From a virus: DNA of 52,374 nucleotides. Each line of letters opens with the position of its first letter. Position 1 is the first letter of the stretch. Made by a program: the position numbers and the translations under genes. A model generated the notes under the pieces. That model saw nothing but the letters and a program-made list of their open reading frames with translations, did not search any database and had not been told where the DNA came from. The stretch spans positions 1 to 52,374 of IMG/VR virus record IMGVR_UViG_3300025769_000169; one strand, written 5' to 3'. Below are positions 4,403 through 36,187 of this stretch, one piece after another.

Positions 4403-4410
4403 TATAAATA
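4403..4410 (+). promoter_or_regulatory. T4-type late promoter before gp18
   Basis: Perfect TATAAATA, the -10-like element read by the late sigma gp55 in T4-like phages. It sits 3 nt after the gp17 stop and 50 nt before the gp18 start, with no -35 box. gp55 itself is encoded at 17488-18036. Confidence 0.85.
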
Positions 4411-10532: not shown

Positions 10533-10889
10533 ATGGCAATAGGTCAACAATTTCTAAAGGTCACCAAAACGACTAATGTAGTCAGTGTGACAGGAGGAGC
10601 GGGAAATACTACTATCGATATTGATGGTGCTTCATTTCTTGTGACAAACCAAACTGCTTCATCACCTACAGTTGGTATTAAAGAAATCTACTGGTCAGGA
10701 GATGTAGTTATTGAGAGTGCTACAACCGGAACTGTAAAATTTGATAGCGGTGCAACTGGTACATCAGGTCATTGGATTTTACCTGCACTAGAAGTTACAG
10801 ATAGTGATGAAGATATTAAAGTGACTATCACAACAGGCGGCACCGCAGTTCTAGTGCTTAAAAAATTAACAGGTTATGCAGGTATCTAA
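10533..10889 (+). CDS. Small beta-rich structural candidate, paralog of 1724-2095
   Basis: The 118-aa protein is rich in Thr, Gly, Val and Ser with alternating hydrophobic pattern, suggesting an all-beta fold; no signal peptide or membrane helix is seen. Its C-terminal half resembles that of the 123-aa protein at 1724-2095, ending VLVLKKLTGYAGI versus VTITLKKVSGFTQL. It is the first gene after a perfect late promoter and lies directly before the prohead protease, so a virion role such as decoration or internal head protein is likely but unproven. The start has AAGGG about 10 nt upstream. Confidence 0.7.
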   Translation: MAIGQQFLKVTKTTNVVSVTGGAGNTTIDIDGASFLVTNQTASSPTVGIKEIYWSGDVVIESATTGTVKFDSGATGTSGHWILPALEVTDSDEDIKVTITTGGTAVLVLKKLTGYAGI

Positions 10890-10890
10890 C

Positions 10891-11538
10891 ATGAAACTGA
10901 TTAGAGAAGAAATTTCAGACGCTAACTTTCTCGTAGAAGAGAAGGGTGGCGCAAAACAATATTTCATTGAGGGCGTGTTTATGCAATCCGACCTCAAGAA
11001 TAGAAACGGTCGAGTGTATCCGAAGTCAGTTATGGAAACTGAAGTTAAGAGATATACAAAAGAAAATATCGACCGCAAACGTGCGTTTGGTGAGTTGGGT
11101 CATCCTGATGGTCCGACAATCAATCTTGAAAGAGTATCGCACATGATTACAGAATTGTCAATGGATGGTTCTAATGTCATGGGCAAAGCAAAAATTATGG
11201 ATACTCCATACGGTAAGATTGTTAAGAATTTGATGGATGAGGGCGCTACATTGGGGGTATCTTCTAGGGGAATGGGTTCGCTTAAAGCGGGTCGTTCAGG
11301 TGCCCAAGAAGTGCAAGGTGATTTTTATCTTGCAACCGCCGCCGACATTGTTGCAGACCCATCTGCTCCTGATGCTTTCGTAAATGGCATCATGGAAGGC
11401 GCAGAATGGATTTGGGATAATGGCATCATCAAAGAAGTGAATATCGAAAGATATAAGCAAGACATTGCTAAAGCAAAACTTAATTCTTTACAAGAAGCAA
11501 AGTTAAATGCATTTAATAATTTCTTGTCAAAACTGTAA
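10891..11538 (+). CDS. gp21: Prohead core protease gp21
   Basis: This 215-aa serine protease cleaves the scaffold, core proteins and capsid precursors after Glu in (L/I)xE sites during head maturation. The sequence shows FMQSDLKNRNGRVYP near 30-44, the catalytic His in ELGHPDGP (His71) and the Ser in GVSSRGMG (Ser124/125), followed by LATAADIVADPSAPDAF. These are the hallmarks of the T4 gp21/U9 protease family. An ATG at 10876 in the same frame lies inside the upstream gene; the ATG at 10891 gives the usual KLIREE N-terminus. T4 gp21 is 212 aa. Confidence 0.93.
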   Translation: MKLIREEISDANFLVEEKGGAKQYFIEGVFMQSDLKNRNGRVYPKSVMETEVKRYTKENIDRKRAFGELGHPDGPTINLERVSHMITELSMDGSNVMGKAKIMDTPYGKIVKNLMDEGATLGVSSRGMGSLKAGRSGAQEVQGDFYLATAADIVADPSAPDAFVNGIMEGAEWIWDNGIIKEVNIERYKQDIAKAKLNSLQEAKLNAFNNFLSKL

Positions 11539-18042: not shown

Positions 18043-19491
18043 ATGTTACATAGAAAAACTATCTGTATACTTGGTGCAGGTAATGCCGGTCTTTTCGCCG
18101 CATTATATTTAAAAAAATCCTTACCAGGATTAAATGTTTATGTTGTTGGTTCATCTGAACTTGGCATTGTTGGTGTGGGTGAAAGTAGCACAGAACATGT
18201 AATGCAGTTCATGAATTTGATGAATGTAGACCATAAAGAGATAGTTCAAGAATGCGGCGCAACTTTTAAGTTTGGGGTCTATTTTAAAGATTGGTTAAAA
18301 GAAGGTGAAGATTATGTACATTCACTAGTTACAGATACTAATGAAGATGGCATAGACTTTGATTATATGAGTGGTATGGCATATGGTTCTACGAATTTAG
18401 AACTAATGCCACCAAATCTTCTCAACTATTGTGTAGATGAAAAAGACAGTTTACCTAATCAGTTTCATTTTGATACTCAAAAACTAAATGCTTGGTTAAC
18501 CAAAAAATGTAAACTGATAGGCGTACCTATCTATGATGATATTATCAATCAAGTCAATCATGATGATGGTCATGTGGCAAGTCTAGAGAGTGAGACTGCT
18601 GAATACAAAGCAGATATGTTTGTAGATGCTTCTGGTTTTAAGAGACTTATTGCAAAAGAAATACCAGAGTTTAAGTTTATCTCAAAGCAAGATGACATGT
18701 TTGTTGATAGTGCATTTGCTTTTCAGTGTCCTCATGATAACGAAGATAATTATTCTCTATTCACTACTGCACATAAAATGTCTGCTGGATGGATGTGGCG
18801 CATCCCAACATCTGAAAGAATGGGAAATGGATATGCATATAGTTCGAAGCATATATCATACGAAGATGCTGTAAAAGAAGTTACTGATAAACTAGGTTTT
18901 AAACCAAATGTAGGCAGAACATTTAAGTTTGAAGCAGGTCACTACAATAAGACTTTTCATAAGAATGTTGTATTGATTGGTTTGTCATCACACTTTTTTG
19001 AACCCTTAGAAGCAACTGCTATTGGTGTTGGACTACAGCAAGCAAAACTATTAGTGAAGTATGTAAACTCAACTACACCAGAAGCACAGCAAGGATACAA
19101 CAATAAAATTCAACAGATGTTTGAGCAAATGTTCATGTTCATTCGTTTACATTATGTGAACTGCGAAGTGACAAGTTCTTTCTGGCAAGATGTGAAGGAT
19201 TCAGTTTTACCGAAAAATTTACAAAAACTTATTGACATTAATAGAGACCGTGTGTTAGTATGTGAAGACTTAGGAGAACAGACTGGATGGGGTTGGCGTA
19301 TTTTTGGTAGTGATAACTTCAATCAAATATTTTATGCACTAGGACTATTACCTACTAAAAATGTAGAAGACTTCATATATGCTAATGGTAGATTACCTAG
19401 AAAACATAAATTTACAGACAACTCTACCTATAAGCATAAAGATTTGATTACAAAATGGAACAATGAATATGAAAATAGCATTAATAACTGA
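18043..19491 (+). CDS. FAD-dependent tryptophan-halogenase-like protein
   Basis: The 482-aa protein has all main landmarks of flavin-dependent tryptophan halogenases. These are the dinucleotide-binding GAGNAG (11-16), GVGESS (44-49), a lysine in TFKFGVYF (Lys76, at the place of catalytic Lys79 of PrnA), the halogenase signature GWMWRIP (249-255) and FEPLEAT (319-325). Family enzymes chlorinate or brominate tryptophan with FADH2 supplied by a reductase; no reductase is seen here. Members occur in other marine T4-like phages with unknown substrate. It lies 6 nt after gp55 and overlaps gp47. The real substrate may be a peptide or host metabolite; activity is inferred. Confidence 0.85.
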   Translation: MLHRKTICILGAGNAGLFAALYLKKSLPGLNVYVVGSSELGIVGVGESSTEHVMQFMNLMNVDHKEIVQECGATFKFGVYFKDWLKEGEDYVHSLVTDTNEDGIDFDYMSGMAYGSTNLELMPPNLLNYCVDEKDSLPNQFHFDTQKLNAWLTKKCKLIGVPIYDDIINQVNHDDGHVASLESETAEYKADMFVDASGFKRLIAKEIPEFKFISKQDDMFVDSAFAFQCPHDNEDNYSLFTTAHKMSAGWMWRIPTSERMGNGYAYSSKHISYEDAVKEVTDKLGFKPNVGRTFKFEAGHYNKTFHKNVVLIGLSSHFFEPLEATAIGVGLQQAKLLVKYVNSTTPEAQQGYNNKIQQMFEQMFMFIRLHYVNCEVTSSFWQDVKDSVLPKNLQKLIDINRDRVLVCEDLGEQTGWGWRIFGSDNFNQIFYALGLLPTKNVEDFIYANGRLPRKHKFTDNSTYKHKDLITKWNNEYENSINN

Positions 19492-22676: not shown

Positions 22677-22938
22677 AGTTAGATTTACACAAACAGAATA
22701 TCATCAGATGACAATCACTAAAGACATGAGCGTGAGTGAAGAACATATCATCGAACAAGGTTTGACAGTAGAACGCTTTAAAGAAATTATGAATGGTGAA
22801 GACCATACTGATGAAGAGTGCGACCAATATAATGAAATTCTTATGGGGTGGGCAGATGTTCTTGACAGTCAAGAAGATTTGTGGACTGACCGTAAGGGTG
22901 GTTATGATATCGATTATGAGTTGGTAGACGATGAGTAA
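22669..22938 (+). CDS. Small acidic protein of unknown function
   Basis: The 89-aa protein starts GEVRFTQTEYHQMTITKDMSV and is rich in Asp/Glu with a central helix GLTVERFKEIMNGEDHTDEE. No family recognised. The ATG at 22669 has GAAGGAGAA well spaced upstream; an earlier in-frame non-ATG start is unnecessary. It overlaps the deformylase gene by 8 nt, making a tightly coupled trio after gp46. Confidence 0.65.
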   Translation: MGEVRFTQTEYHQMTITKDMSVSEEHIIEQGLTVERFKEIMNGEDHTDEECDQYNEILMGWADVLDSQEDLWTDRKGGYDIDYELVDDE

Positions 22939-23464
22939 AATTTTAGATTTAACGCCTCCAAGTGAAGCAAGATACAAACCAGAAGAGTTTGATTTTGAGA
23001 ATCCATTTATGGATCCAATTGAACTTGCTGACCAGTTGTGGGATAATATGCTACACTATAAAGGCGTAGGATTATCTGCAACTCAAGTGGGTTTTAACAC
23101 TAAAGTTTTTGTCATGGGTCAAGATGACTTTCGTTTGAATGTTTTTAACCCTCAAGTACTTACAATGTCATCTGAACTGAAAGCAATGAAAGAAGGTTGT
23201 TTGACATGGCCTGGATTGTTTTTATCAATTCGTAGACCTGTTTTCTGTGTAGTATCATATTATGATGAAAAAGGTAATAACCAGAAGTTTAAATATGAAG
23301 GTATGACTGCACGAATATTCTTGCATGAAATGGATCATATGCTCGGCATCGATTTCACACAGAGAGCATCAAAGTTAGTGCTTGATAGAGGTGTCAAAGC
23401 AAGAGATAAGAAAATTAAAAAGTTAGTAAAAGATGGAAAGTTAAAATTAGATGCCGTGGGTTGA
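22931..23464 (+). CDS. def: Peptide deformylase
   Basis: This 177-aa enzyme removes the N-terminal formyl group from nascent proteins. All three family motifs are present. Motif 1 is GVGLSATQ (45-52), motif 2 EGCLTWPG (88-95, metal-ligand Cys90), and motif 3 LHEMDHM (His132 and His136, catalytic Glu133). Phage deformylases of this kind are known from marine T4-like phages, where they are thought to keep host or phage proteins (photosystem proteins in cyanophages) processed during takeover. It lies in an operon with no other translation gene. The C-terminus is a Lys-rich helix. Confidence 0.93.
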   Translation: MSKILDLTPPSEARYKPEEFDFENPFMDPIELADQLWDNMLHYKGVGLSATQVGFNTKVFVMGQDDFRLNVFNPQVLTMSSELKAMKEGCLTWPGLFLSIRRPVFCVVSYYDEKGNNQKFKYEGMTARIFLHEMDHMLGIDFTQRASKLVLDRGVKARDKKIKKLVKDGKLKLDAVG

Positions 23465-24047
23465 TTTACCTAAAAAAGGTGAAATAGGAGTTATGCCTTT
23501 TGAAAGGTTTGATTGGAATGATATAATACATAACTTTCAAGCATCTGTTGATTATAGAAACTCAGAAGAATGGAAAAAGGTTATTTCAAAATCTGGAAGA
23601 GCAGTTAGACTAGTATCGCAAAATCAAATTGAAATTGATAATGATACTAATACATTTCCTTCTTTTGCTACACATAATGCAGAGTTAATACCTCAGGTTG
23701 CATATGTAAGAAAAATTATAGAAGAGAAGCATCTTATTGAAAGAAGTGCTAGTAGAGTAAATTGTCATTTGTTTGTATCTCTTGTTGCAGAAAGTGACGG
23801 ACTAAACTTTCATCTTGACACTGAAGATACATACATATGGCAGATACAAGGCAAAACACTTTGGACAGTACAACAAGGTATAAACGAAGGTGATCCCATC
23901 GAAGAATTTATATTAGAACCAAACGACATGATATATATTCCAAAAGGTTGGCGCCACTATCCTACTATCACGGGTCCAAGATGTTCAGTTAGTTTTGCAA
24001 TTGAAGATAATCTATTTAATAGTGTAGAAGAAAGGTCAGATATATGA
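23451..24047 (+). CDS. JmjC/cupin-type oxygenase candidate
   Basis: The 198-aa protein has a cupin/JmjC-like Fe(II) site. HLD (His121, Asp123) lies in GLNFHLDTEDTYIWQIQGKTLW and the distal His169 in IPKGWRHYPT. This spacing and the Q(I/L)xGxKxW-like turn resemble protein hydroxylases of the JmjC/cupin_8 group. The substrate is unknown; ribosomal proteins or other proteins are typical targets of relatives. It overlaps the deformylase by 14 nt and the following hydroxylase gene by 4 nt. An alternative is a non-enzymatic cupin, as I cannot confirm the 2-oxoglutarate-binding residue. Confidence 0.7.
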   Translation: MPWVDLPKKGEIGVMPFERFDWNDIIHNFQASVDYRNSEEWKKVISKSGRAVRLVSQNQIEIDNDTNTFPSFATHNAELIPQVAYVRKIIEEKHLIERSASRVNCHLFVSLVAESDGLNFHLDTEDTYIWQIQGKTLWTVQQGINEGDPIEEFILEPNDMIYIPKGWRHYPTITGPRCSVSFAIEDNLFNSVEERSDI

Positions 24048-25186
24048 CACAGACAGAAGTAGAAATGAAAGATTGGCAGAAAGGTTATCAGTTAGATTAC
24101 CTGAAAGAAATTACTGCAGAGTATGACCATTACAATTCATACACCGATAGTCCTTTTGCACAATTTAAGAAGAATAATGTAGCAGACTTTTTAGACAAAG
24201 GTTCGCTACGCAAAGCAGGTGATGCATGGATTAATATCACGGAAGCAAAAGTTAAGTCAAAGATTACAATGCACGGTGAGACTATTATTGGTTATAAAGA
24301 ACCAGGTGATGTTGTAATTCAAAATATATCTGCATATACAGAAAACGTAAAGAACTACATCAATCACTATTCAGATAGAAACTGTTGGTTGTTTGTGTGG
24401 TCAGAAGATGCAAAAGCAGTTGAGTTTGCTAAAGAAGCAGGATTCGACTATGTTGGTAGCAAAATAACTACGTTTGCAGAGATATATAGCGTTTTCTTTC
24501 GTAATTCTAGCACTTCATTCGAGGATCGCTCTCATCCGCCCATAGACGGCGCTGAGACGGTTTCTATAAGTAAATGCATGTTTGACACTATCGAAACATC
24601 GATTATACGCACCGAACTAGAAAAATTGACGATGGAGTATACTAATCATTACTCAAATTACAATAAAAAAGGTGCTTGGTCAGCAATATCGCTGAGAGGA
24701 TATAGACCAGATGCATCATTTATTGCAAAACCTGTTGAAATGAGCAAGAAATGGAAAGCAGAAAACGACACATGGGAAGAGTGGGAGTGTGAAGACACAC
24801 CTTTGCGTGAGCAGTTTCCGTATGTCAATGAGATACTCTCAAAGATACCTACTGACAATATTGAGCGAATAAGATTTATGTCACTCGCTCCAGGTGGTGG
24901 TGAACTGCAAAGACACACAGACCAAGTTGACCCTTATCTTGGTGTTGCAGATGGTAAGATTATGAGACTACATATTCCAGTGATTACAAATCCGAAGATG
25001 GAGTTTACATCGTGGGATATGCATGGGCAGAAACATGTTGTTAATATGAAAGAAGGTGAGTTGTGGTATCTAGATATTCGCAAACCACATATGGCGATTA
25101 ACAATGGTGATGAAACAAGAATACATTTAGTGGTGGATATAGAAGCAAATGATAAATGCAGAAGATTATTTAGAGTTAGTGAGTGA
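24044..25186 (+). CDS. GNAT-like domain fused to aspartyl/asparaginyl beta-hydroxylase
   Basis: In this 380-aa protein the C-terminal part (about 270-380) is an Asp/Asn beta-hydroxylase domain. HTD gives the first two iron ligands (His291, Asp293), His349 in RKPHMAINNG is the third and Arg359 in DETRIHLVV would bind 2-oxoglutarate. The N-terminal 160 residues look like an acetyltransferase-type fold (CWLFVWSEDAKAVEFAKEAGFDYVGSKI resembles a GNAT end region), but acetyl-CoA motifs are not clear. Such a two-domain protein could modify one target twice. It overlaps both neighbours, the downstream one by 38 nt. Confidence 0.72.
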   Translation: MTQTEVEMKDWQKGYQLDYLKEITAEYDHYNSYTDSPFAQFKKNNVADFLDKGSLRKAGDAWINITEAKVKSKITMHGETIIGYKEPGDVVIQNISAYTENVKNYINHYSDRNCWLFVWSEDAKAVEFAKEAGFDYVGSKITTFAEIYSVFFRNSSTSFEDRSHPPIDGAETVSISKCMFDTIETSIIRTELEKLTMEYTNHYSNYNKKGAWSAISLRGYRPDASFIAKPVEMSKKWKAENDTWEEWECEDTPLREQFPYVNEILSKIPTDNIERIRFMSLAPGGGELQRHTDQVDPYLGVADGKIMRLHIPVITNPKMEFTSWDMHGQKHVVNMKEGELWYLDIRKPHMAINNGDETRIHLVVDIEANDKCRRLFRVSE

Positions 25187-25916
25187 TTGGGAAGACCCTT
25201 ACGATGCGCCTGTTCTGTGCAATCATGATGATGTTATCGTGGTTCGGGACGACCTACTACCTGCAGGTTCAAAAGTGCGGTTCATCGATAAACTCATACG
25301 GGATACCGATTGCGAAGAGTGGGTGTTCGGTGGTTCAAACAAAGTTGGATGGGGACCAATCTCACTAGCATATGTGTGTCAGAAGTATGGAAAAAAGGCA
25401 ACTTGCTTTTGGGCAGATAGAAAAGAACCAACATGGCATCAACAGAAATACATGGAGTACGGAGGTCGTATTGAATGGGTGAAGATGGGAATGCTAAATG
25501 TCACTCTGTCAAGAGCAGAGCGATACCGCAGAGAGAGTCCTCAAACCCGCAGGACATTGCCCTTAGGACTAGAACACGATTGGGTGCTAGGAAGTATAGT
25601 GAAAGTAGCGCAGTCGCTAGATGTAGCGCCAGAAGTAATCTGGACAGTAGGGTCATCAGGAACGATAAACCGAGGGTTGCAACTTGCATTCCCAGAGTCC
25701 GAAGTTCATGTGATACAGACGGGTCATAAGATGGATGAACGTCAGGTTGGTCGCGCTATCTTACATGAAACTGCATATAAATATGACAAACCAGTGAAGC
25801 AATCAGAAGCACCACCATTTCCGTCTGCTCCTGAATATGATGCAAAAGCATGGAAAGTGATACAAGAAAATATGGATAGAAATAAACTTAATTTATTTTG
25901 GAATGTAGCGGCATGA
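25149..25916 (+). CDS. Possible PLP fold-type II enzyme
   Basis: The 255-aa protein has features reminiscent of the tryptophan synthase beta / ACC deaminase fold. There is an early Lys in GGSNKVGWGPISLAYVCQKYG (Lys65) followed by a helix, then a TWHQQKYMEYGGRIEWV segment. A glycine loop GSSGTINRG (168-176) resembles a phosphate-binding loop, and a strand SEVHVIQTGHK follows. It is shorter than classic enzymes (about 330 aa) and I cannot confirm Schiff-base chemistry. Residues near 120-135 are Arg-rich. It sits between two oxygenase genes and overlaps both. Confidence 0.5.
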   Translation: MINAEDYLELVSDWEDPYDAPVLCNHDDVIVVRDDLLPAGSKVRFIDKLIRDTDCEEWVFGGSNKVGWGPISLAYVCQKYGKKATCFWADRKEPTWHQQKYMEYGGRIEWVKMGMLNVTLSRAERYRRESPQTRRTLPLGLEHDWVLGSIVKVAQSLDVAPEVIWTVGSSGTINRGLQLAFPESEVHVIQTGHKMDERQVGRAILHETAYKYDKPVKQSEAPPFPSAPEYDAKAWKVIQENMDRNKLNLFWNVAA

Positions 25917-26470
25917 TAAAAAGATTAGATTATATCGATAATTTGTTTGATGATGAGTTTGTAGCAAGAGTAGCAACAAAGTATCATGATAATTTATTTT
26001 ATTATGGCAATGTATCAAACAATCCAGATGATGCAATATTTTGGGCCAGTAAAAGACTGAAAGATTATACTCATATATTAGATTGTCCTGACCAAAAGTT
26101 TATCTTTAATAAAATTAAAGAATACTATAAGTTTGAAGTTAATGAAAAAGAAATAGACAAAGAGAATGTCTATATCAATGGACAAACATATGAATTAGAC
26201 GGGTCTATGCACATTGATAGTTTACATCGAACAAAAAATTTACAAGAGAACTTTACCATTTTGTACATGGTAAATTATTTACACGAAGGAATAAGAGGAT
26301 TTGAAACTCCAATGGGTGTAGTTGATTTTGTTCCAGGTAGAGTTGTGATATTTAGTTCTTTAATGTCGCATCGAGGATTATCTACCTCGGTAAAAACTAA
26401 TTGTCGAATGACATTAACATGGAAAAGTTTTGATTTAGTGTTTGACAAAACCAGTCCAATGATGCTATAA
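25913..26470 (+). CDS. 2OG-Fe(II) oxygenase-like protein
   Basis: The 185-aa protein (ATG at 25913 overlapping the previous stop) has an HxD in GSMHIDSLHR (His100, Asp102). The distal His153 is in SLMSHRGLSTSV and an Arg ten to twelve residues later (CRMTLTW) would suit the 2-oxoglutarate carboxylate. The overall layout matches prolyl-4-hydroxylase-like phage oxygenases. Substrate unknown. An in-frame ATG at 25898 lies inside the upstream gene and would add five residues. The last codons carry the -10 box of the next promoter. Confidence 0.72.
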   Translation: MIKRLDYIDNLFDDEFVARVATKYHDNLFYYGNVSNNPDDAIFWASKRLKDYTHILDCPDQKFIFNKIKEYYKFEVNEKEIDKENVYINGQTYELDGSMHIDSLHRTKNLQENFTILYMVNYLHEGIRGFETPMGVVDFVPGRVVIFSSLMSHRGLSTSVKTNCRMTLTWKSFDLVFDKTSPMML

Positions 26471-26471
26471 T
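26442..26471 (+). promoter_or_regulatory. Sigma70-type promoter with almost no leader
   Basis: TTGACA (26442-26447), 18-bp spacer, perfect TATAAT (26466-26471), lying inside the end of the oxygenase gene so that the -10 contains its TAA stop. The next ATG is at 26481, only 10 nt after the -10, so transcription would start within about 3 nt of the start codon. Confidence 0.82.
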
Positions 26472-26480
26472 GAGAGTAAT

Positions 26481-26708
26481 ATGAAAACCTATATACATGT
26501 AAACCAACATAAGATTAGAGCGAACAAAAAGCATGGTACAAACGAACCTGTTATCACAGTAAAAAAGGGTCGCTCAAATACATATTGTCATGCAGTTAAG
26601 ATACTAGGTGACAGTGTAGTTCGTTATGGTGGTAATGAAAAACCTATTCTATCTTGCGGCGCAAGAGTAGTGATAGAAACAGAAAGTGATGTTGAGATTA
26701 TTGAATGA
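26481..26708 (+). CDS. Conserved small protein of marine T4-like phages
   Basis: The 75-aa protein starts KTYIHVNQHKIRANKKHGTNEPVITVKKG and ends SCGARVVIETESDVEII, a pattern I recall from hypothetical proteins of cyanophages; function unknown. It appears to be a compact beta barrel with a basic N-terminal half, suggesting nucleic acid binding, but this is a guess. It is transcribed from the promoter that overlaps the previous gene and overlaps the methylase by 4 nt. Confidence 0.72.
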   Translation: MKTYIHVNQHKIRANKKHGTNEPVITVKKGRSNTYCHAVKILGDSVVRYGGNEKPILSCGARVVIETESDVEIIE

Positions 26709-28264
26709 AGCATTTTTATGAAAGAAATAGTTATCTACTAGAACATGAAGTAAACAAGACATTCGAAGAAGTTCTATGGATGACAGACGATGAATTTCGT
26801 CAATGGTTGCATGATATGCGAAAAGAAGTAGTATACTCATGGGATGAACTAGGTCTGCCTCCAAGAGTTGGTTGGAGTGAAACTGATATTATTGACCAGT
26901 TCAATAAGATGTCTAGTTTTCCTGTTCATGAGTTTGAATGCTTTAACGAAGAGACAGGTGAGCGAGATGTTATTCGTAATACATCAGTTATAGGTAATGC
27001 CGCCAATCAGTGGTTTCCTACAATGATGAAAACAAAGATTGTTTACAACGATATCAGCAAAGCAAAATCTATCTATGACCACTTTGTTGATGAAGATTTA
27101 TTTCAGAAAGTATATACATATGGGCATCGTCACTTTAAGCGGGATTCTTTCTATCATTATAGCAATCCTATTAAGCAAGAAGGGTTGGTTGAATTTGGGA
27201 CCTTACGGCACACAGTTTCTAGCGGCAGGTCTTTTATTGATTGGTTTGAGCGTAATGGTCGTCAATATGATACACATGATTATTGGTTGAAACCAGATAA
27301 AGAACAAGACTATACAGGTTATGATGACAAACTAAGAGATGTCGCGTGGGCGCAAGTTACTAGAGAAGAAATTGAACAACTAGACATACCTGACAAATGC
27401 AAAGTCAATATGAAAGACGAATATGATGTCTATCAGATTATGCTGTTCAAGAAAGGTCAAAAAATCTTTCCTTTGGGGTTCAAACCTTTTCGTATCTCTT
27501 GGTGTCAATACGCAGTAAACTTTCCGCCTCTTACTGCTAAATATCTCTATGAAAAATATACTGAGCATTTTAAAGACCAGTCTACTATTCGTATTTGGGA
27601 TCCCTCTGCTGGTTGGGGCGGTCGTATTCTTGGTGCTATGTCTATCTCTGATGACCGCAATGTACACTATATTGGGACTGACCCTAATACCGACCATACT
27701 GTCATTACAGAAGACGGTACCAAAAGCACAAAGTATGCTGAACTTGCAAGGTTTTTCAATGAGAAAACTTACAGAGCAACAGGTCTATTCCCACATACAA
27801 ACACATACGAAATTCACCAATGTGGGTCAGAAGTCTTTGAATGTGAAGAAGAGAGTATCGATATGGTCTTCACCTCGCCGCCTTATTTTGCGAAAGAAGC
27901 GTATAGCGAGGACGAAGAACAATCGTACAAGAAGTTCGACCAGTATGAAGCGTGGGTAGAAGGGTTTCTTAGACCTACACTTACTAACGCATATAAATAC
28001 TTAAAGAACGACAGATACTTACTCTGGAATATTGCAGATGCAAAGTTCGGTAATGAGATGCTACCTTTAGAAGGTGATAGTATTCGTATCTGTGAAGAAC
28101 TTGGGTTTGAGTATGTGACCACGTTAAAGATGGCACTAGCACAGATGCCAGGTGGTAATAGAGTTGATGAGGAGACAGGTAAACCGCGGGCGAAAAACTT
28201 TTGTAAAGTCAACGGCATCTGGTTAAAGTATGAACCGATATTCGTATTCAAAAAACATCTTTAG
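26705..28264 (+). CDS. DNA methyltransferase (N4/N6 type, TSPPYF motif)
   Basis: The 519-aa protein has the SAM-binding motif I DPSAGWGGR (299-307) followed by YIGTDPN. The catalytic motif is TSPPYF (390-395), the (D/N/S)PPY signature of amino-methyltransferases acting on adenine N6 or cytosine N4. The 290-residue N-terminal part is unrelated to classic methylases and could be a recognition or second functional domain. Order motif I then SPPY fits group gamma-like enzymes. It might protect phage DNA or change expression. No matching endonuclease lies beside it. The gene overlaps the next methyltransferase by 35 nt. Confidence 0.8.
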   Translation: MKHFYERNSYLLEHEVNKTFEEVLWMTDDEFRQWLHDMRKEVVYSWDELGLPPRVGWSETDIIDQFNKMSSFPVHEFECFNEETGERDVIRNTSVIGNAANQWFPTMMKTKIVYNDISKAKSIYDHFVDEDLFQKVYTYGHRHFKRDSFYHYSNPIKQEGLVEFGTLRHTVSSGRSFIDWFERNGRQYDTHDYWLKPDKEQDYTGYDDKLRDVAWAQVTREEIEQLDIPDKCKVNMKDEYDVYQIMLFKKGQKIFPLGFKPFRISWCQYAVNFPPLTAKYLYEKYTEHFKDQSTIRIWDPSAGWGGRILGAMSISDDRNVHYIGTDPNTDHTVITEDGTKSTKYAELARFFNEKTYRATGLFPHTNTYEIHQCGSEVFECEEESIDMVFTSPPYFAKEAYSEDEEQSYKKFDQYEAWVEGFLRPTLTNAYKYLKNDRYLLWNIADAKFGNEMLPLEGDSIRICEELGFEYVTTLKMALAQMPGGNRVDEETGKPRAKNFCKVNGIWLKYEPIFVFKKHL

Positions 28265-28901
28265 TAACGTACCAGTCGAATTCGAAGATTGGGGTCAAAA
28301 AGATTATGATGAGTTGTGTGGCATTGAAAAATATGCATATCAAACATATCGTTACTTCATCAAAGACTATCTGCAAAATCATACTGAAATCACAGCGATG
28401 GATATTAACTGTGGTCTTGGATACGGTCTAGCATGTCTCAAAGGCGAATATAATTTTAAAAAGTGTATTGGATATAATAATGACCAAAACATGCTTGAAG
28501 CATGTAAGATTAGACATTCTGGTATCTCTTTTTACAAAGACTTTATATTGTCTAAGCAGAGAGATGCAAATCTAATTTTCTCTATTGATGCATTTGACCA
28601 GTATGATAATAAGAGTGCTTTGTTGCTTAGACTATCGCAAGCATTAGCAGATGATGGTATCTTGTGTATAATTCAAAACTCAACAGACGAAAATGAATAT
28701 AATAATTACATTGAAATTTTACATGGAGTACATGGTCTAAAGAAATTATATAATGCAGATATAACTGCACATGTTGCAGGTGGTATTAAAAAGTTTGAAA
28801 ATTTTGCAGATGGTTCATCATCAATACCTTATGCTACAGTTTCATCAAAAATATCTCGTTATGATGATTTCAGATACTATGTAACTATTATGAAGAGATG
28901 A
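28230..28901 (+). CDS. Class I SAM-dependent methyltransferase
   Basis: The 223-aa protein carries motif I MDINCGLGYGL (57-67) then KKCIGYNNDQNMLEACK, the typical Rossmann nucleotide-binding strand and acidic residue pattern, and a LSQALADDGILCIIQN strand typical of post-motif regions. No SPPY motif, so the substrate is probably a small molecule or protein rather than DNA bases. The start at 28230 lies inside the DNA methylase (35-nt overlap); no better internal Met is available before motif I. It overlaps the next oxygenase by 4 nt. Confidence 0.75.
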   Translation: MNRYSYSKNIFSNVPVEFEDWGQKDYDELCGIEKYAYQTYRYFIKDYLQNHTEITAMDINCGLGYGLACLKGEYNFKKCIGYNNDQNMLEACKIRHSGISFYKDFILSKQRDANLIFSIDAFDQYDNKSALLLRLSQALADDGILCIIQNSTDENEYNNYIEILHGVHGLKKLYNADITAHVAGGIKKFENFADGSSSIPYATVSSKISRYDDFRYYVTIMKR

Positions 28902-29407
28902 TAACATTAATAGATACTTTTTTAGAACCTGATACATTTTTCAGAGCAACTTCACTATCAAACGAAATTTATAATTCAACAGAATGCACACTAAAATCTA
29001 ATGCATCTTGGAATTCTAATGTTGTGCGAACAAGTCATACTGTTCTTGTACATATGATATCTGATGACGAACTTGTGAACTACTTACAAACAAGAGTAGA
29101 AGAAGAATTTGGTCACTATGATATCACACCTATGTTTTATTACTGGACACAGTTTAGTTACATACCGTGGCATAATGATGGAAATCATTCAGCGGCACTT
29201 ACAATTTATCTCAATGAACAAGATGAAAATGATGGTGGATATTTTATGTATGAGAAAGATGATGGAACAATCGAAGCAGTTGCACCTAAACCTAATAGAG
29301 CGATATTTCAAGCAGATGGAGTGAGACACTCTGTTACTTCAGTTAATCTTGGTGCACCAGTCAGAAGAACAATACAAATATTCATGAAAAAACGCTTGAC
29401 AAACTAA
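28898..29407 (+). CDS. 2OG-Fe(II) oxygenase (prolyl-4-hydroxylase-like)
   Basis: The 169-aa protein is the clearest oxygenase of the island. PWHNDGNHSAALTIYLN holds His92 and Asp94, and HSVTSV the distal His144. Arg156/157 in APVRRTIQIF is the likely 2-oxoglutarate ligand. GGYFMY lies between them as in prolyl 4-hydroxylase-type domains (DUF-type phage oxygenases of about 170-190 aa). Likely targets are proteins or nucleobases, unknown. Its last 12 bases hold the -35 of the next promoter. Overlaps the methyltransferase by 4 nt (ATGA). Confidence 0.82.
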   Translation: MITLIDTFLEPDTFFRATSLSNEIYNSTECTLKSNASWNSNVVRTSHTVLVHMISDDELVNYLQTRVEEEFGHYDITPMFYYWTQFSYIPWHNDGNHSAALTIYLNEQDENDGGYFMYEKDDGTIEAVAPKPNRAIFQADGVRHSVTSVNLGAPVRRTIQIFMKKRLTN

Positions 29408-29424
29408 TCTACCTGTGGTATTGT
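29396..29424 (+). promoter_or_regulatory. Sigma70-type promoter for the 45-aa membrane protein
   Basis: TTGACA (29396-29401), 17-bp spacer, TATTGT (29419-29424), starting in the last codons of the oxygenase gene; leader of about 20 nt with GAGAGAGG ribosome site. Confidence 0.8.
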
Positions 29425-29449: not shown

Positions 29450-29587
29450 ATGTTTAGTGCGATTTGGTTTGGTTTGACACTTCCTTTTAGAATTATCTGG
29501 TGGATTGTTCTGATTGGAATTGGTCTAATGGCATTTTATTTTAGTTTTTTTGTCATTATTGCCATAATCAGTGCGATTTTCGCTTGA
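29450..29587 (+). CDS. 45-aa hydrophobic membrane protein
   Basis: A short frame ATG to TGA encodes 45 residues, nearly all hydrophobic or aromatic. Residues 1-18 include FSAIWFGLTLPFRIIWW and residues 19-45 form a second stretch rich in Ile, Phe and Ala. This suggests one or two transmembrane helices with a single Arg (Arg14) as the only charge. It has its own sigma70 promoter and a good ribosome site, which argues it is real. The TGA stop lies within the -35 of the next promoter. Possible roles are inner-membrane accessory of lysis, exclusion or the adjacent VWA/AAA pair; none is shown. Confidence 0.72.
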   Translation: MFSAIWFGLTLPFRIIWWIVLIGIGLMAFYFSFFVIIAIISAIFA

Positions 29588-29613
29588 CAAAATATGATAA
29601 CGTATGTTATTAT
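29584..29613 (+). promoter_or_regulatory. Sigma70-type promoter for the CobT-like gene
   Basis: TTGACA (29584-29589), 18-bp spacer, TATTAT (29608-29613). The -35 contains the TGA stop of the 45-aa gene. The downstream ATG at 29646 has AGAAGG as ribosome site. Confidence 0.85.
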
Positions 29614-29645
29614 GTATATAGATGATGAGAAAAGAAGGTGTGTTT

Positions 29646-31913
29646 ATGACAAAAATTACTGAAGTCAAATCTGTTCTAGCAAAATTGCTTGCTACTGAGA
29701 ACTTGACTGTCGAGTATGCAAATGTCGATACTGCTAGTTTCGATGTTAAAAATCGCATATTGCGTATTCCGACAATGAAAGATTTAGATGCAAAAACTCT
29801 AGACCTGTTTGTTGGTCATGAAGTCGCCCATGCTCTATGGACTCCTTGCGATGGCATGGAGAACCTTCCTATCAAATCTAAGAATTTTCATTCAGTTGTG
29901 AATGTCGTAGAAGATGCCCGCATTGAGCGACTAATTCAGAAGAAATATCCTGGTCTAAAGAAACCATTCTATCAAGCATACACACAGTTGCATGAGAATA
30001 ATTTCTTTGGTACAGAAGAAATGAACATTTCTGATTTGCTTCTTATCGACCGCATCAATCTAAAAGCAAAACTCGGTACTCAAATCAACATTGAGTTGAC
30101 AGGTAAAGAAAAAGAATTCTTTGACCGTTCTATGACTACTCAAACTTTTGATGAAGTTATCAAACTATCAGAAGAGTTGTTCGAATATTGTCAGCAAGAG
30201 TTAGAAGAAAAGCAACAGAATTCAGAAGATAATCCTGATGTTTCTCCTTACATGATGCAATCTGAGCAAGGCGATGAGCAAGAGCAAAACGCCGATAATG
30301 ATGGTGCTGATGAAGGCGAAGGTCAAGGTATGAATGCTGTACAAGGTGATGCTGACCAAGATGCAGAAGAGCAAGGTCAAGCAAACTCTGCTGATACAGA
30401 AGAAGATGCCGATGGCGAAGATACAGTAAAAACTAAAGCACCAAATTTAGTAGATGATATGGATGGTAAAGCAGAAGATACTGAAGGTTCTGCTCCTGGT
30501 GTCAAATCAATTACTGATATGGCATCTAACAAGAATACCAAAAAGTTAGTCGAGACTGATGAGGATTCGATTCCTCGTTACTATGATATTCCTAAGACTA
30601 TCAATATCAATGAAGTCGTTGTTCCATTCACCACAATTCATTCTGAAATTGTAGAACATTGGGGCAACACCGAGCGTGTCAAAAATCTGTTGACCAAGAC
30701 CGCAAAAGAATTCAAAAAGAAGAATGAAAAGGTAATCAATTATCTGCACAAAGAATTCGAAATGAAAAAAGCGGCAGATATGTATGCCCGCGCAAACACT
30801 ACCAAGACTGGTGTTATCAATTCAAATCTGCTTTACTCATACAAGTACAATGAAGATATCTTTATGAAAAAGACTGTTCTTCCAAATGGTAAGAACCACG
30901 GTATGGTTTTCTTCCTTGACTGGTCTGGTTCAATGTCAGATAACATGAAAGGTACTATGGAGCAGTTGCTTTGTCTCGCATTGTTCTGCAAAAAAGCACA
31001 GATTCCTTTCTCTGCTTATGCATTCTCTTCTGAGTACTACAAGCGTACACAAACAAATCTAGAAAAAATTCAGTCTCTTAATATGAATGAACTGAATGTT
31101 AGTGGTGTTTCGCTGTTAGAACTTTTCAATGACAAAATGAATACTGTTCAATTCAACAAAGCAGTCGAGTTATGTGTAGCATTGTCAAATCTGTATAGCA
31201 GAAAATATGGTTATGGTGATTTTGCATACATGGGTCTTCCAAGAAAATATTATCTTGGCGGTACTCCTCTTGATGCTACAATTATTATCGCCCACAGACT
31301 TGTTCCTGAGTTTCAGAAAAAAATGAACGTGCAAGTTATGAATGTGTGTTTCTTGACAGATGGTTCAAGTCACACCGTGAGTGGTTGTGTTGGTTACAAC
31401 AAGTTCGGTGGTGTCGATGCATTTACTGTCACCGCTGATGTAAACTCTCGCGGCACATTCTTTATCCGTGATAAGAATACTGGAACTCTCATTAAGTCTG
31501 TCGGTGACAAATACAACCGAGGCGATATGACAAAAGCATTATACATGTCTCTCAAAAAGTCAACTGGTACAAACACAATGGGTTTCCACTTAGTTGGTCA
31601 GCGTAATGAGATGCGCTATGCATATGACAAGTACATTGCTCCAACATTAGACAGTGAGATTGCACGATACACATATTTCGATGATTGGAAAAAGTCATTC
31701 AATAGAAACAAATGCGATACTTCAATTATCAGTGGATTAGATGAATTGTACATCATCAAAGGTGGTAAAGCACTTGAGGTTGATGATGAAGGTCTTGATG
31801 TTGAGGTTGGTGCTTCAAAGCAAAAACTGACCACAGCATTCAAGAAAGCGGCACAAGGTAAATTGCAGAACCGAGCAGTTCTGAGCAAATTTATTGAGAA
31901 TATCGCCGCTTGA
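29646..31913 (+). CDS. CobT-like zinc-protease / VWA-domain protein
   Basis: The 755-aa protein has two functional signatures. HEVAH (58-62) with a downstream VEDARIE is a gluzincin-type zinc site. A C-terminal von Willebrand A domain has MIDAS DWSGS (Asp425, Ser427, Ser429) and a later LTDGS. Between them is a long acidic, Gln/Asp/Glu-rich linker (about 180-290). This architecture matches CobT and other VWA partners of MoxR-type AAA+ ATPases. A CobS-like ATPase is the next gene, so they probably act as a chelatase-like remodelling pair. No CobN subunit is visible, so cobalamin synthesis is doubtful. A further in-frame Met lies upstream at 29622. Confidence 0.85.
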   Translation: MTKITEVKSVLAKLLATENLTVEYANVDTASFDVKNRILRIPTMKDLDAKTLDLFVGHEVAHALWTPCDGMENLPIKSKNFHSVVNVVEDARIERLIQKKYPGLKKPFYQAYTQLHENNFFGTEEMNISDLLLIDRINLKAKLGTQINIELTGKEKEFFDRSMTTQTFDEVIKLSEELFEYCQQELEEKQQNSEDNPDVSPYMMQSEQGDEQEQNADNDGADEGEGQGMNAVQGDADQDAEEQGQANSADTEEDADGEDTVKTKAPNLVDDMDGKAEDTEGSAPGVKSITDMASNKNTKKLVETDEDSIPRYYDIPKTININEVVVPFTTIHSEIVEHWGNTERVKNLLTKTAKEFKKKNEKVINYLHKEFEMKKAADMYARANTTKTGVINSNLLYSYKYNEDIFMKKTVLPNGKNHGMVFFLDWSGSMSDNMKGTMEQLLCLALFCKKAQIPFSAYAFSSEYYKRTQTNLEKIQSLNMNELNVSGVSLLELFNDKMNTVQFNKAVELCVALSNLYSRKYGYGDFAYMGLPRKYYLGGTPLDATIIIAHRLVPEFQKKMNVQVMNVCFLTDGSSHTVSGCVGYNKFGGVDAFTVTADVNSRGTFFIRDKNTGTLIKSVGDKYNRGDMTKALYMSLKKSTGTNTMGFHLVGQRNEMRYAYDKYIAPTLDSEIARYTYFDDWKKSFNRNKCDTSIISGLDELYIIKGGKALEVDDEGLDVEVGASKQKLTTAFKKAAQGKLQNRAVLSKFIENIAA

Positions 31914-31959
31914 TTAGAAAAGTTTTTCACACTTTTGCCATAAATAGTGAAAATAATGC

Positions 31960-31988
31960 TTGACTAATTCAGTAAAATATGAGATAAT
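31960..31988 (+). promoter_or_regulatory. Sigma70-type promoter for the CobS-like gene
   Basis: TTGACT (31960-31965), 17-bp spacer, GATAAT (31983-31988), 33 nt before the start codon. A late-like CATAAATAGTG (31939) and a small inverted repeat AAAAGT/ACTTTT (31918-31936) lie just upstream in the 107-nt gap. Confidence 0.7.
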
Positions 31989-32020
31989 GTTTACATAATG
32001 ATGAGAAAAGGTGATTAATT

Positions 32021-33178
32021 ATGAATAAACGTGAGATGTTTCTTGAGTCCGCAACTGCGATGTTTCCTAAACAGACTGAGTTCAGTCGTTCAGAACTAGT
32101 TCAAGTTGCCAATTCTATTGGTATGAAATATGCACCATCATGGATTGTAAAATCTGATGAACATAAAGTTGGCGATGGTGTGTATTCACTATTCGCAAAT
32201 ACTGTAACGGCAACAGTTGCCGAACCACAAACGGTTGCTGAGGTCGTAGAGATGCCTAAAAAGAAATTGCAAGTGTTAGATAGTACTGTCACTAATCTGA
32301 TTCCTCAAGCATATGCGAACTATGTTCCATTCGGTCAGTTTTCTGATGTTAAAAATATCGTCAAGTCTAAAATGTTCTATCCGACATTCATTACTGGTCT
32401 GTCTGGTAATGGTAAGACTATGATGGTCGAACAGATTTGCGCCCAACTGAACCGCGAGTTCTTCCGTGTGAACATCACTATCGAAACCGATGAAGATGAT
32501 TTGCTCGGTGGTTATCGCCTTGTTGATGGCGAGACTGTCTTCTTTGATGGTCCAGTTATTCAAGCAATGAAGCAAGGTGGCGTATTGCTCCTTGATGAGA
32601 TTGACCTTGCATCAAACAAGATTATGTGTTTGCAACCAATCCTAGAAGGCAAGGGTATTCTACTGAAGAAAATCAATCAGTATGTACAACCTGCTCCTGG
32701 TTTCCAGATTATTGCTACTGCAAACACCAAAGGTAAGGGTTCAGAAGATGGACGCTTCATCGGTACGAACATCCTGAACGAAGCATTTCTTGAGCGTTTC
32801 CCAATCTGTATCGAACAAGAGTATCCTTCTATTACTGTAGAAAAGAAAATCATCAATAAAGAGTTGGACTCTCTTGGAAAGTCTGATGATGATTTTGCTG
32901 ATAAACTGACCAAGTGGGCAGATATCATTCGTAAGACGTTCCTCGATGGTGGCATCGATGAGATTATCGCCACTCGGCGTCTTGTACATATTGTCAAAGC
33001 ATATGCCGTCTTTGGTGACCGCATGAAAGCGATACAGATGTGTATCAACCGCTTTGATGATGAAACTAAATCTGCGTTCATCGACCTCTATTCGAAAGTC
33101 GATGAGCAGATTGTCGATACTGATTTCGGTGAAAGTGTTACTGAACCACAATCAGATGTTGACAAAACACCGTTCTAA
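32021..33178 (+). CDS. cobS: CobS-like MoxR-family AAA+ ATPase
   Basis: The 385-aa AAA+ ATPase has Walker A GLSGNGKT (126-133, Lys132), then DEDDLLGGYRLVDGE, the pattern before Walker B in CobS/MoxR proteins. Walker B LLLDEIDLA follows, and then ATANTKGKGSEDGRFIG with the sensor and NEAFLERFPI arginine-finger region. CobS is the ATPase subunit of cobaltochelatase and is widespread in marine T4-like phages. Its partner is probably the VWA protein just upstream. The first 85 residues form a separate winged-helix-like start (FSRSELVQVANSIGMKYAPSWIV). Substrate unknown. Confidence 0.88.
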   Translation: MNKREMFLESATAMFPKQTEFSRSELVQVANSIGMKYAPSWIVKSDEHKVGDGVYSLFANTVTATVAEPQTVAEVVEMPKKKLQVLDSTVTNLIPQAYANYVPFGQFSDVKNIVKSKMFYPTFITGLSGNGKTMMVEQICAQLNREFFRVNITIETDEDDLLGGYRLVDGETVFFDGPVIQAMKQGGVLLLDEIDLASNKIMCLQPILEGKGILLKKINQYVQPAPGFQIIATANTKGKGSEDGRFIGTNILNEAFLERFPICIEQEYPSITVEKKIINKELDSLGKSDDDFADKLTKWADIIRKTFLDGGIDEIIATRRLVHIVKAYAVFGDRMKAIQMCINRFDDETKSAFIDLYSKVDEQIVDTDFGESVTEPQSDVDKTPF

Positions 33179-33253: not shown

Positions 33254-33514
33254 ATGGCACGACAAAAAACGTCTGTAAAGACAAAAATCATGAATGCACT
33301 TTCAACTGGTGAGTCCTTCACCCGCAAGCAACTTGCACGGAAAGCACGGACTGATACAGTCAATGTGTCTCGCCGTATTAGCGAACTGCGCCTAGAAGAA
33401 GGTGTCATGATTTACTCTAACCCAACGGGTAAGGGTAATAGTGTATCGTATCGTATCGGTACACCTACTAAGGCAGTTGTTGCCGCTGGACTACGTTCAG
33501 TAGCAACCGCCTAA
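33254..33514 (+). CDS. Small winged-helix DNA-binding protein
   Basis: The 86-aa protein contains KTKIMNALSTGESFTRKQLARKARTDTVNVSRRISELRLEEG, a winged-helix pattern with a recognition helix (TVNVSRRISELR), then a wing IYSNPTGKGNSVSYRI. The N-terminus is basic (ARQKTSVKTK). It is probably a small DNA-binding regulator or an accessory to the neighbouring AAA+ pair. A strong AAGGAG ribosome site precedes it and perfect hairpins lie on both sides, so expression seems to be controlled separately. Confidence 0.72.
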   Translation: MARQKTSVKTKIMNALSTGESFTRKQLARKARTDTVNVSRRISELRLEEGVMIYSNPTGKGNSVSYRIGTPTKAVVAAGLRSVATA

Positions 33515-34550: not shown

Positions 34551-35495
34551 ATGGATATTAAAAGTGATGAATTTCTGTGGGTTGAAAAGTACCGCCCACA
34601 GACCATTCAAGATGCGATTTTACCAAAGCATCTTGAAACAACCTTTCAACAGTTTGTTGAGAGTGGGGATATTCCTAACCTATTGTTGTGCGGCACTGCA
34701 GGTGTCGGTAAGACCACAGTCGCAAAAGCACTTTGCGAACAGATGGGTTATGATTGGATTATTCTCAATGGTTCAAGTGAAGGTGATATTGACACCTTAC
34801 GAACTAAAATTGTAAACTTTGCTAGTACTGTGTCCTTCAGTGGCAAAGGTAAAGTGGTCATCTATGATGAAGCAGATTATTTGACCGCGGTGACGCAACC
34901 TGCTTTGCGTAACTTTATTGAAGAGTTCAGTAAGAACTGTCGGTTCATCTTCACTTGTAACTATAAAAACAAAATCATTCCTGCACTTCATTCTAGGTGT
35001 AGTGTGATTGAGTTTACTATTCCTAAAGATGAGAGACCTAATCTTGCAGGCAGTTTCTTCAATCGCGTAAATCAAATCTTAGATACTGAGAATGTTCAGT
35101 ATGAAAAAGGTACTGTAGCGAAGATTGTAGAAAAGCACTTTCCTGACTTCAGACGCACACTCAATGAACTGCAGAAAATTTCTGTTGGTGGTCGTATCGA
35201 TAGTAGTAGTGTAGATGTAGTCGATGTCGATATCAAAAATGTTATCGCACACTGCAAGCAAAAAGACTTTCAGAAGATGCGTAAATGGGTCGCTGACACT
35301 ATTCACACAAGCGATGCACAAGATGTATATCGTAAAGTCTACGACACTATGAGTGAGCATCTACAACCGCAGAGCATACCTCTTGTAGTTCTAAAGATTG
35401 CTGACTATCAGTATAAGAATGTGCATGTGGCAGACCAAGAAGTAAACATGGTTGCATTCTTTACTGAAGTTATGGTTGACTGTGAGTTTCAGTAA
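34551..35495 (+). CDS. gp44: Clamp loader large subunit gp44
   Basis: This 314-aa AAA+ ATPase has FLWVEKYRPQTIQDAILP at the start, Walker A GTAGVGKT (48-55, Lys54) and Walker B VVIYDEAD (Asp106/Glu107). The SRC motif is LHSRCSVIEF (Ser148-Arg149-Cys150). With gp62 it loads the gp45 clamp onto primer-template DNA. T4 gp44 is 319 aa. The stop overlaps the ATG of an oxygenase gene that separates it from gp62. Confidence 0.95.
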   Translation: MDIKSDEFLWVEKYRPQTIQDAILPKHLETTFQQFVESGDIPNLLLCGTAGVGKTTVAKALCEQMGYDWIILNGSSEGDIDTLRTKIVNFASTVSFSGKGKVVIYDEADYLTAVTQPALRNFIEEFSKNCRFIFTCNYKNKIIPALHSRCSVIEFTIPKDERPNLAGSFFNRVNQILDTENVQYEKGTVAKIVEKHFPDFRRTLNELQKISVGGRIDSSSVDVVDVDIKNVIAHCKQKDFQKMRKWVADTIHTSDAQDVYRKVYDTMSEHLQPQSIPLVVLKIADYQYKNVHVADQEVNMVAFFTEVMVDCEFQ

Positions 35496-36187
35496 TGCCG
35501 ATACCTTATTTACATCATGAATTATTTGAACTAAATGATGGTCTTCTATGCAAGAAGCATGTGATAGAAGGTATCGGTCCTGTCGTAGTGATTGACCAGA
35601 CTTACAAATACCCTAGTGATATTGCACTAATGCTAGACCAAGCATGGGTTCCTTCTTTTCACTATGGTAGAAGTAGTTCTAATTATAAAGACTACTATGA
35701 TTGCAGATATAATATTCAAATTACGAAAACAGGTCATGTCAAAGAAAATGAAGTTCAACTTTTAATTAGAGATATGGCGAAGAACTATCTTGGTTATGAG
35801 TGTATTGATGAAGAACTTGATTATACTTTCAATTGCTTTACATGGGTAAACCCACCTTCAAGCAATGATGTTCAGTCTATGCCACATCAAGATAGTGAAG
35901 GTAAATCACATATTGCATCTGTAACTTATTTCAATGATAATGAAAACCACGGCACAGCATTTTATTCTCATTGTGATGCCGAGCAAGAAGAAGTTATAGA
36001 CATTCGGTGTGATATATCGAAGAATGCAGAACTAGTTGAAGTGATTACAGGTAAAAAGAACAGAACTATCATTTATCCTAGTTGGTACTGGCATGGTGCA
36101 TATATAGAAGACCACAGTGAGTGGGTCGATAATTGGAGATACAGTCAAGTATACTTCAATAGAGTGAAACCGGATTTTAAATTATGA
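35495..36187 (+). CDS. DUF6445-like 2OG-Fe(II) oxygenase inserted in clamp-loader operon
   Basis: The 230-aa protein has HQD (His131, Asp133) in SMPHQDSEGKSH and a distal His200 in PSWYWHGAYI. The middle SHIASVTYFNDNENHGTAFYSH fits the jelly-roll core of DUF6445-type oxygenases, which are frequent in marine phages. It sits between gp44 and gp62 with 1-nt and 4-nt overlaps, so it is cotranscribed with the replisome. Substrate unknown. Confidence 0.72.
   Translation: MPIPYLHHELFELNDGLLCKKHVIEGIGPVVVIDQTYKYPSDIALMLDQAWVPSFHYGRSSSNYKDYYDCRYNIQITKTGHVKENEVQLLIRDMAKNYLGYECIDEELDYTFNCFTWVNPPSSNDVQSMPHQDSEGKSHIASVTYFNDNENHGTAFYSHCDAEQEEVIDIRCDISKNAELVEVITGKKNRTIIYPSWYWHGAYIEDHSEWVDNWRYSQVYFNRVKPDFKL

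Follow-up and report, generated by a model that had tools for sequence, protein, structure and literature searches.

An HExxH-VWA protein and a MoxR-type ATPase in a T4-type replication cluster

The analyzed window is a 52,374-nt fragment of a marine T4-like virus (IMG/VR record IMGVR_UViG_3300025769_000169, our G000) that encodes, on its plus strand, a von Willebrand factor A (VWA) protein with a metallopeptidase-like domain and an adjoining AAA+ ATPase. This pair of genes is already known, widespread, and core in T4-like cyanophages and pelagiphages; the new part of the present analysis is the tests of the functions proposed for it. A two-gene cobST cluster was described as widespread in tailed viruses, with the remark that in cyanophages the usual annotation of cobT as a peptidase is wrong (PMC8651126), and cobS is listed in the cyanophage core (PMC3037559). 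The interest of the pair is the evidence against the standard vitamin B12 label of a core cyanophage gene.

The upstream gene (29646..31913, plus strand) encodes a protein of 755 amino acids (aa) that combines an N-terminal HExxH metallopeptidase-like domain, an acidic linker, and a VWA domain with a metal-ion-dependent adhesion site (MIDAS). Its longest open reading frame (ORF) spans 29622-31913; however, 29646 is the likelier start, since the ATG at this position comes after the ribosome-binding site AAGAAGG. The zinc-binding motif HEVAH (residues 58-62, 29817..29831, plus strand) is followed further downstream by VVEDARIE and then by the series DWSGS, GGTPL, and TDG, in which DWSGS (residues 425-429, 30918..30932, plus strand) is the MIDAS motif. 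Residues H58, E59, H62, E89, and D90, i.e., an HExxH site with a downstream glutamate, are invariant in the alignment, as is the MIDAS motif; as judged from its sequence, the protein probably carries an active zinc metallopeptidase domain. The downstream gene (32021..33178, plus strand) encodes an ATPase of the CobS/NorQ/CbbQ type, whose Walker A (GLSGNGKT), Walker B (LLLDEID), and ERF motifs are invariant among the aligned relatives.

Profile comparisons place the two proteins in the families phrog_459 (CobT-like, annotated as peptidase; E=6e-192, residues 4-754) and phrog_249 (cobS, annotated as porphyrin biosynthesis; E=3e-122, residues 72-364), respectively. Together with the ORFs and motifs, these matches confirm the arrangement described in an earlier note on this DNA, namely a zinc site joined to a MIDAS-bearing VWA domain upstream of a CobS/MoxR-type ATPase. 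The ATPase also matches the Pfam family AAA_5 (E=2e-21), with a CbbQ_C match just under the cut-off, and its closest solved relatives in PDB are midasin, CobS, NorQ, and CbbQ. The profile of the VWA protein gave no meaningful match among the PDB sequences, and its structure model (mean predicted local distance difference test score, pLDDT, of 71) matches the VWA domain of NorD from the NorQ-NorD complex (9qh6, E=1e-4). The window thus contains a MoxR-type AAA+ gene adjoining a MIDAS VWA gene.

The kinship of both proteins to the cellular cobaltochelatase subunits CobS and CobT (TIGR01650 and TIGR01651; PDB 9uka series) is remote, and consists in the AAA+ ring and in the shared layout of N-terminal domain, acidic linker, and VWA domain. 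The ATPase scores 79.9 bits (E=2e-22) against the CobS model TIGR01650, of which the equivalog cut-off is 558.6 bits, and is therefore a homolog but not an equivalog of CobS. The CobT model TIGR01651 (NCBI equivalog cut-off 759 bits) does not match the VWA protein at E<=0.1, and the Pfam families CobT and CobT_C do not match it either. The proteins of pelagiphage HTVC008M gave the same outcome, and those of cyanophage S-SM1 just a weak putative-cobaltochelatase match. Moreover, HExxH was found in 0/14 recovered cellular CobT sequences, and the eight of them that were aligned carry NIDGE in the VWA domain at the place occupied by GGTPL in the phage family; the window protein, with HEVAH and GGTPL, differs from cellular CobT in both respects.

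The pair is located inside a T4-type replication cluster, in the window as well as in its relatives. In the window, where T4 gene names were assigned by reading, in agreement with annotated relatives, the virion genes, in their usual order, are followed by gp47 (19463), gp46 (20533), a set of oxygenases and methyltransferases, and the pair, downstream of which lie gp45 (33871), gp44 (34551), gp62, regA, hsp20, gp43 (38301), uvsX (41118), and gp41 (42386). Among the relatives, gp46/47 are found upstream of the pair in 55 of 69 loci and gp45/44 downstream of it in 77 of 82.

A consensus scan identified near-consensus sigma70-type promoters on the plus strand before the VWA gene (TTGACA-18-TATTAT, 29584..29613), before the ATPase gene (TTGACT-17-GATAAT, 31960..31988), and before a 45-aa membrane ORF that precedes them (TTGACA-17-TATTGT, 29396..29424), in agreement with the claim of the earlier note that each of the three has its own promoter. 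The number of promoter-like sites over the whole region is near chance (77 vs 66.8), so the case for these three rests on their placement. They belong to the same class as the promoters of gp43 and uvsX in the window. By contrast, the T4-type late box TATAAATA is present at 4403, 10500, 11543, 12882, and 51670, 20-60 bases before five virion-type genes of the window, and no such late promoter precedes the pair. With this box, the late regulon of the window can be read straight from the sequence.

Conservation of the pair, its motifs, and its promoters

We collected 180 viral loci in three scans. Both genes are present in 139 of them, in 138 of these in the order VWA to ATPase; HExxH is intact in each of the 157 viral copies that have an N-terminus, and the MIDAS signature DxSxS in each of the 168 in which this region is present. 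The two checks proposed in the earlier note, i.e., co-occurrence of the genes and conservation of the HEVAH and MIDAS residues, were therefore passed. Six loci contain the ATPase gene alone, and five of these begin within 0.8 kb of it; among the 35 loci with only the VWA gene, some are truncated and many belong to one lineage, where the VWA gene is followed by MazG-like and other genes. The gene order is reversed in loci L030 and L218 and the orientation divergent in L212 and L215; both genes still stay together there, which argues that the partnership persists when the layout changes.

Homologs of the VWA protein were detected in 463 of 50,697 phage records, nearly all of them cyanophages and pelagiphages. 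A scan of 84,980 prokaryote genomes yielded 20 relatives, all with HExxH and mostly in the gp46/gp45 setting, which we read as phage contigs binned into genomes. The family is thus essentially viral. The pairs of S-SM1, HTVC008M, and Mosig consist of the same two genes in the same order with the same active-site motifs as in the window, at identities of 32-35% for the VWA protein and about 54-63% for the ATPase, and in S-SM1 and HTVC008M the pair likewise lies between gp46/47 and gp45/44. The 45-aa membrane ORF, compared with these three phages, is an extra of the window and its near relatives.

Divergent relatives that retain HExxH were found in phages and phage-plasmids, including ICP2, CRP-810, and those of E. 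coli, Klebsiella, and Gordonia. A distant version of the pair is carried by 215 of 5426 E. coli genomes, in every case on a plasmid. In E. coli pHXH-2, Klebsiella 1825-KPC53, and ICP2, an HExxH-VWA gene and a CobS-like ATPase gene are again adjacent, with no CobN, and near genes of DNA replication: dnaE follows the pair on the E. coli phage-plasmid and, by reading, in a Klebsiella phage, and a primase gene is near it in Vibrio phage ICP2. The VWA domains of these pairs are closer to CobT than that of the window; the ICP2 protein matches PF11775, and both it and the E. coli plasmid protein match TIGR01651 under the cut-off. On the Marinobacter plasmid pMAQU02 (L037:949-8502), genes for RecT, a lambda-type exonuclease, a MoxR-like ATPase, a DUF3150 protein, an HExxH-VWA protein, and a toprim protein are clustered, which constitutes a version of the machine with three genes, carried on a plasmid next to genes of recombination. 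ATPase matches from Staphylococcus phage K and a Listeria phage were dropped, as their neighbors are not VWA proteins, and so was a Burkholderia plasmid match, a cellular VWA gene without HExxH.

The promoter class of the pair is shared by its relatives. Sites matching at least 10 of 12 consensus positions within 120 bases upstream were found before the VWA gene in 52 of 145 relatives (4.7 expected from shuffles) and before the ATPase gene in 58 of 143 (5.0 expected), the absolute counts being approximate because ORF starts were assigned mechanically; a promoter of the same class precedes gp43 in 16 of 17 relatives. The late box TATAAATA shows no enrichment upstream of either gene (2/145 and 1/143, respectively), i.e., it is at chance level. 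The hsp20 gene of the related loci carries it within 120 bases upstream in 23 of 46 cases, vs 1.75 expected, and looks like a late gene in half of the loci. The texts of the transcriptome papers give no expression data for cobS or the peptidase.

As the earlier note had observed for the vicinity of the pair, no CobN-family protein is encoded in the 52-kb record, and none was found in the 23 pair-bearing viral or plasmid records, 10 of which are whole named records.

Predicted function of the pair and alternative explanations

We consider it probable that the two proteins constitute a remodelling machine of the AAA+/VWA/metallopeptidase type that acts in the replication phase and does not depend on CobN. 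The partnership, the intact active-site motifs, the genomic setting, the promoter class, and the absence of CobN from the viral records are all features of the sequences themselves. In the proposed mechanism, a ring of the MoxR/CobS/NorQ-type ATPase and the VWA adaptor with its metallopeptidase domain would act as one complex, with predicted ATPase and peptidase activities. By analogy with NorQ-NorD, CbbQ-CbbO, and CobS-CobT, the VWA domain would use its MIDAS to recruit a client protein for the ATPase ring, which would pull on it or remodel it; the HExxH domain would cut the client or a segment of it. The machine would be made early or in the middle phase, together with the replication genes, and would work without CobN. 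The client would most likely belong to the replication/recombination or takeover phase; given the location, our first guess is a replisome or recombination protein, and our second a host protein.

NorQ-NorD (PDB 9qh6) and CbbQ-CbbO are related to the pair by the sequence kinship of the AAA+ proteins, by the match of the VWA fold to NorD, and by the two-component remodelling of a client. The clients of NorD and CbbO are nitric oxide reductase and rubisco, respectively. To our knowledge, no metallopeptidase domain has been reported for NorD or CbbO.

Several observations weigh against the proposed machine. The HExxH domain has no match among the known peptidase families, and the structure model of the ATPase is poor (mean pLDDT 59) and was left unused. 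On some contigs, no ATPase gene lies near the VWA gene: in one 87-kb record of the VWA-only lineage, the ATPase is encoded about 18 kb from the VWA gene, and in three other such records, which are fragments of 46-62 kb, no ATPase was found. On the Acinetobacter plasmid ZW85p2 (L036:3918-5840), QEVAK replaces HEVAH, with the VWA domain and the ATPase partner kept. Finally, a late function is still compatible with early-type promoters, and the neighborhood of replication genes may mirror the expression class alone.

Among the alternatives, we regard as rather unlikely an anti-host or conflict module, in which the machine would disable or degrade a host protein, e.g., a defence or transcription factor. 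The early/middle expression class and the conserved protease motif would fit a machine directed at host proteins, and MoxR-VWA modules are found in bacterial conflict systems (PMC7159879). However, among the 5027 PADLOC models the VWA protein has no match and the ATPase nothing better than E about 0.01, and the pair is core and syntenic over phages of cyanobacteria, SAR11, and other hosts, whereas counter-defence genes would typically be patchy. Of the suggestion in the earlier note of a remodelling or anti-host module rather than a vitamin gene, the case against a vitamin gene is supported by several results, while no result supports the anti-host role, given the lack of a PADLOC match and the location in the conserved replication/recombination cluster.

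It also seems improbable that the pair is auxiliary metabolic, with the phage CobS and CobT joining the host CobN, or a ChlH-like subunit, in a working cobalt chelatase that would raise cobalamin for nucleotide synthesis. This hypothesis, in which viral cobST borrows the host CobN (PMC8651126), agrees with the usual annotation in cyanophages, with the homology of the ATPase to CobS, and with the CobT-like layout of its partner; moreover, a Prochlorococcus single-cell genome that contains such a phage contig encodes two CobN-family proteins, so that borrowing of CobN is possible in cyanobacteria. However, it fits some hosts only. No CobN is present in a Nonlabens assembly that includes a T4-like contig with the pair, although Nonlabens is not proven to be the true host, nor in the E. 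coli genome of our control panel, which stands in for the carriers of the phage-plasmids. The pair is also present in Pelagibacter phages HTVC008M and Mosig, whose hosts would have little use for cobalamin, an argument taken from the literature, in which SAR11 is described as lacking both MetH and MetE (PMC12478193). No B12-dependent ribonucleotide reductase scored over the family cut-off in any of 15 pair-bearing records; the class II reductase matches were rejected as a sign of B12 dependence, since all are under the cut-off and, at about 770 aa, have lengths in keeping with class I enzymes. The CobS score far under its cut-off, the missing CobT match, and the HExxH site kept in the phage proteins and absent from cellular CobT likewise argue against a chelatase. 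In record FM207411 (cyanophage S-RSM4), cobS is annotated as "cobalamin phosphate synthase like", apparently through a mix-up with the unrelated enterobacterial CobS of the same name.

The least probable of the three is a virion-assembly chaperone with a processing protease, as proposed for the group 2.2 jumbo phages, in which an AAA+ gene likewise adjoins a gene for a vWA protein with an N-terminal metallopeptidase domain, with a MoxR-VWA pair of Acidianus two-tailed virus cited for tail assembly (PMC7824862); against it stand the early/middle-type promoters and the chance-level late box of the pair, compared with the late box of hsp20, a presumed assembly helper, as well as the position within the replication cluster, a separate gp21-type prohead protease (10876-11538, by reading) in the window, and the absence of enterobacterial T4 relatives among the organisms listed for phage records that encode a phrog_459 homolog, so that timing and location favor the replication phase.

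The proposed remodelling machine would have consequences beyond this locus. Only a few "auxiliary metabolic genes" belong to the core of all T4-like cyanophages. The cobS gene is among them, and it is regularly counted as evidence of viral steering of vitamin B12 metabolism. These counts are wrong if the pair is a replication-phase remodelling protease, and a machine of very abundant ocean viruses then lacks a known job.

Cellular CobT without CobN, and other features of the window

A related pattern was observed in cells. In the order of genome G022, by inference Caulobacterales, CobT (TIGR01651) was detected at E<=0.001 in all 60 genomes, in 59 of them over the equivalog cut-off, vs CobN-family proteins in 15 of the 60; CobT unaccompanied by CobN is thus the rule in this order. 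Incomplete assemblies cannot account for 45 missing CobN vs no missing CobT. The Caulobacter vibrioides genome of the control panel likewise contains CobT and no CobN, and C. crescentus is described as unable to make B12 de novo (PMC6538847). These counts suggest that the cellular CobST probably has a CobN-independent role too, and this second function of the cellular proteins is testable in Caulobacter. Tentatively, the phage pair may even represent an older, protease-competent form of CobS-CobT that acts stand-alone on a replication-phase protein, with B12 chelation arising secondarily in cells that gained CobN and no longer have HExxH; if true, the same role without CobN would explain the distribution of CobT and CobN in Caulobacterales.

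The 45-aa membrane ORF upstream of the pair (29450..29587, plus strand) has near-identical or similar orthologs (AIWFGLTLPFRII...) at the same place in loci L010, L011, L013, L018, and L024, and probably represents a genuine small membrane protein of this clade. No similar ORF was found upstream of the pair in the other loci, and we rejected it as a general third partner; since its same-place orthologs are confined to close relatives, it is probably not part of the general machine, and the self-contained module including this protein, as pictured in the earlier note, does not hold.

Other genes of the window include a tryptophan-halogenase family flavoprotein (18043-19491; PF04820, E=6e-87) within the T4-like replication region. 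Several genes of the 2-oxoglutarate (2OG)-Fe(II) oxygenase/hydroxylase type (Asp_Arg_Hydrox and 2OG-FeII_Oxy_3; others by reading) are clustered at 23451-29407 and 35495-36187, and a peptide deformylase gene at 22931 lies beside genes of this type. Downstream of the pair, an 86-aa ORF (33254-33514) weakly matches phage families of the MarR-like and Ren-like kinds and has its own promoter-like site at 33159.

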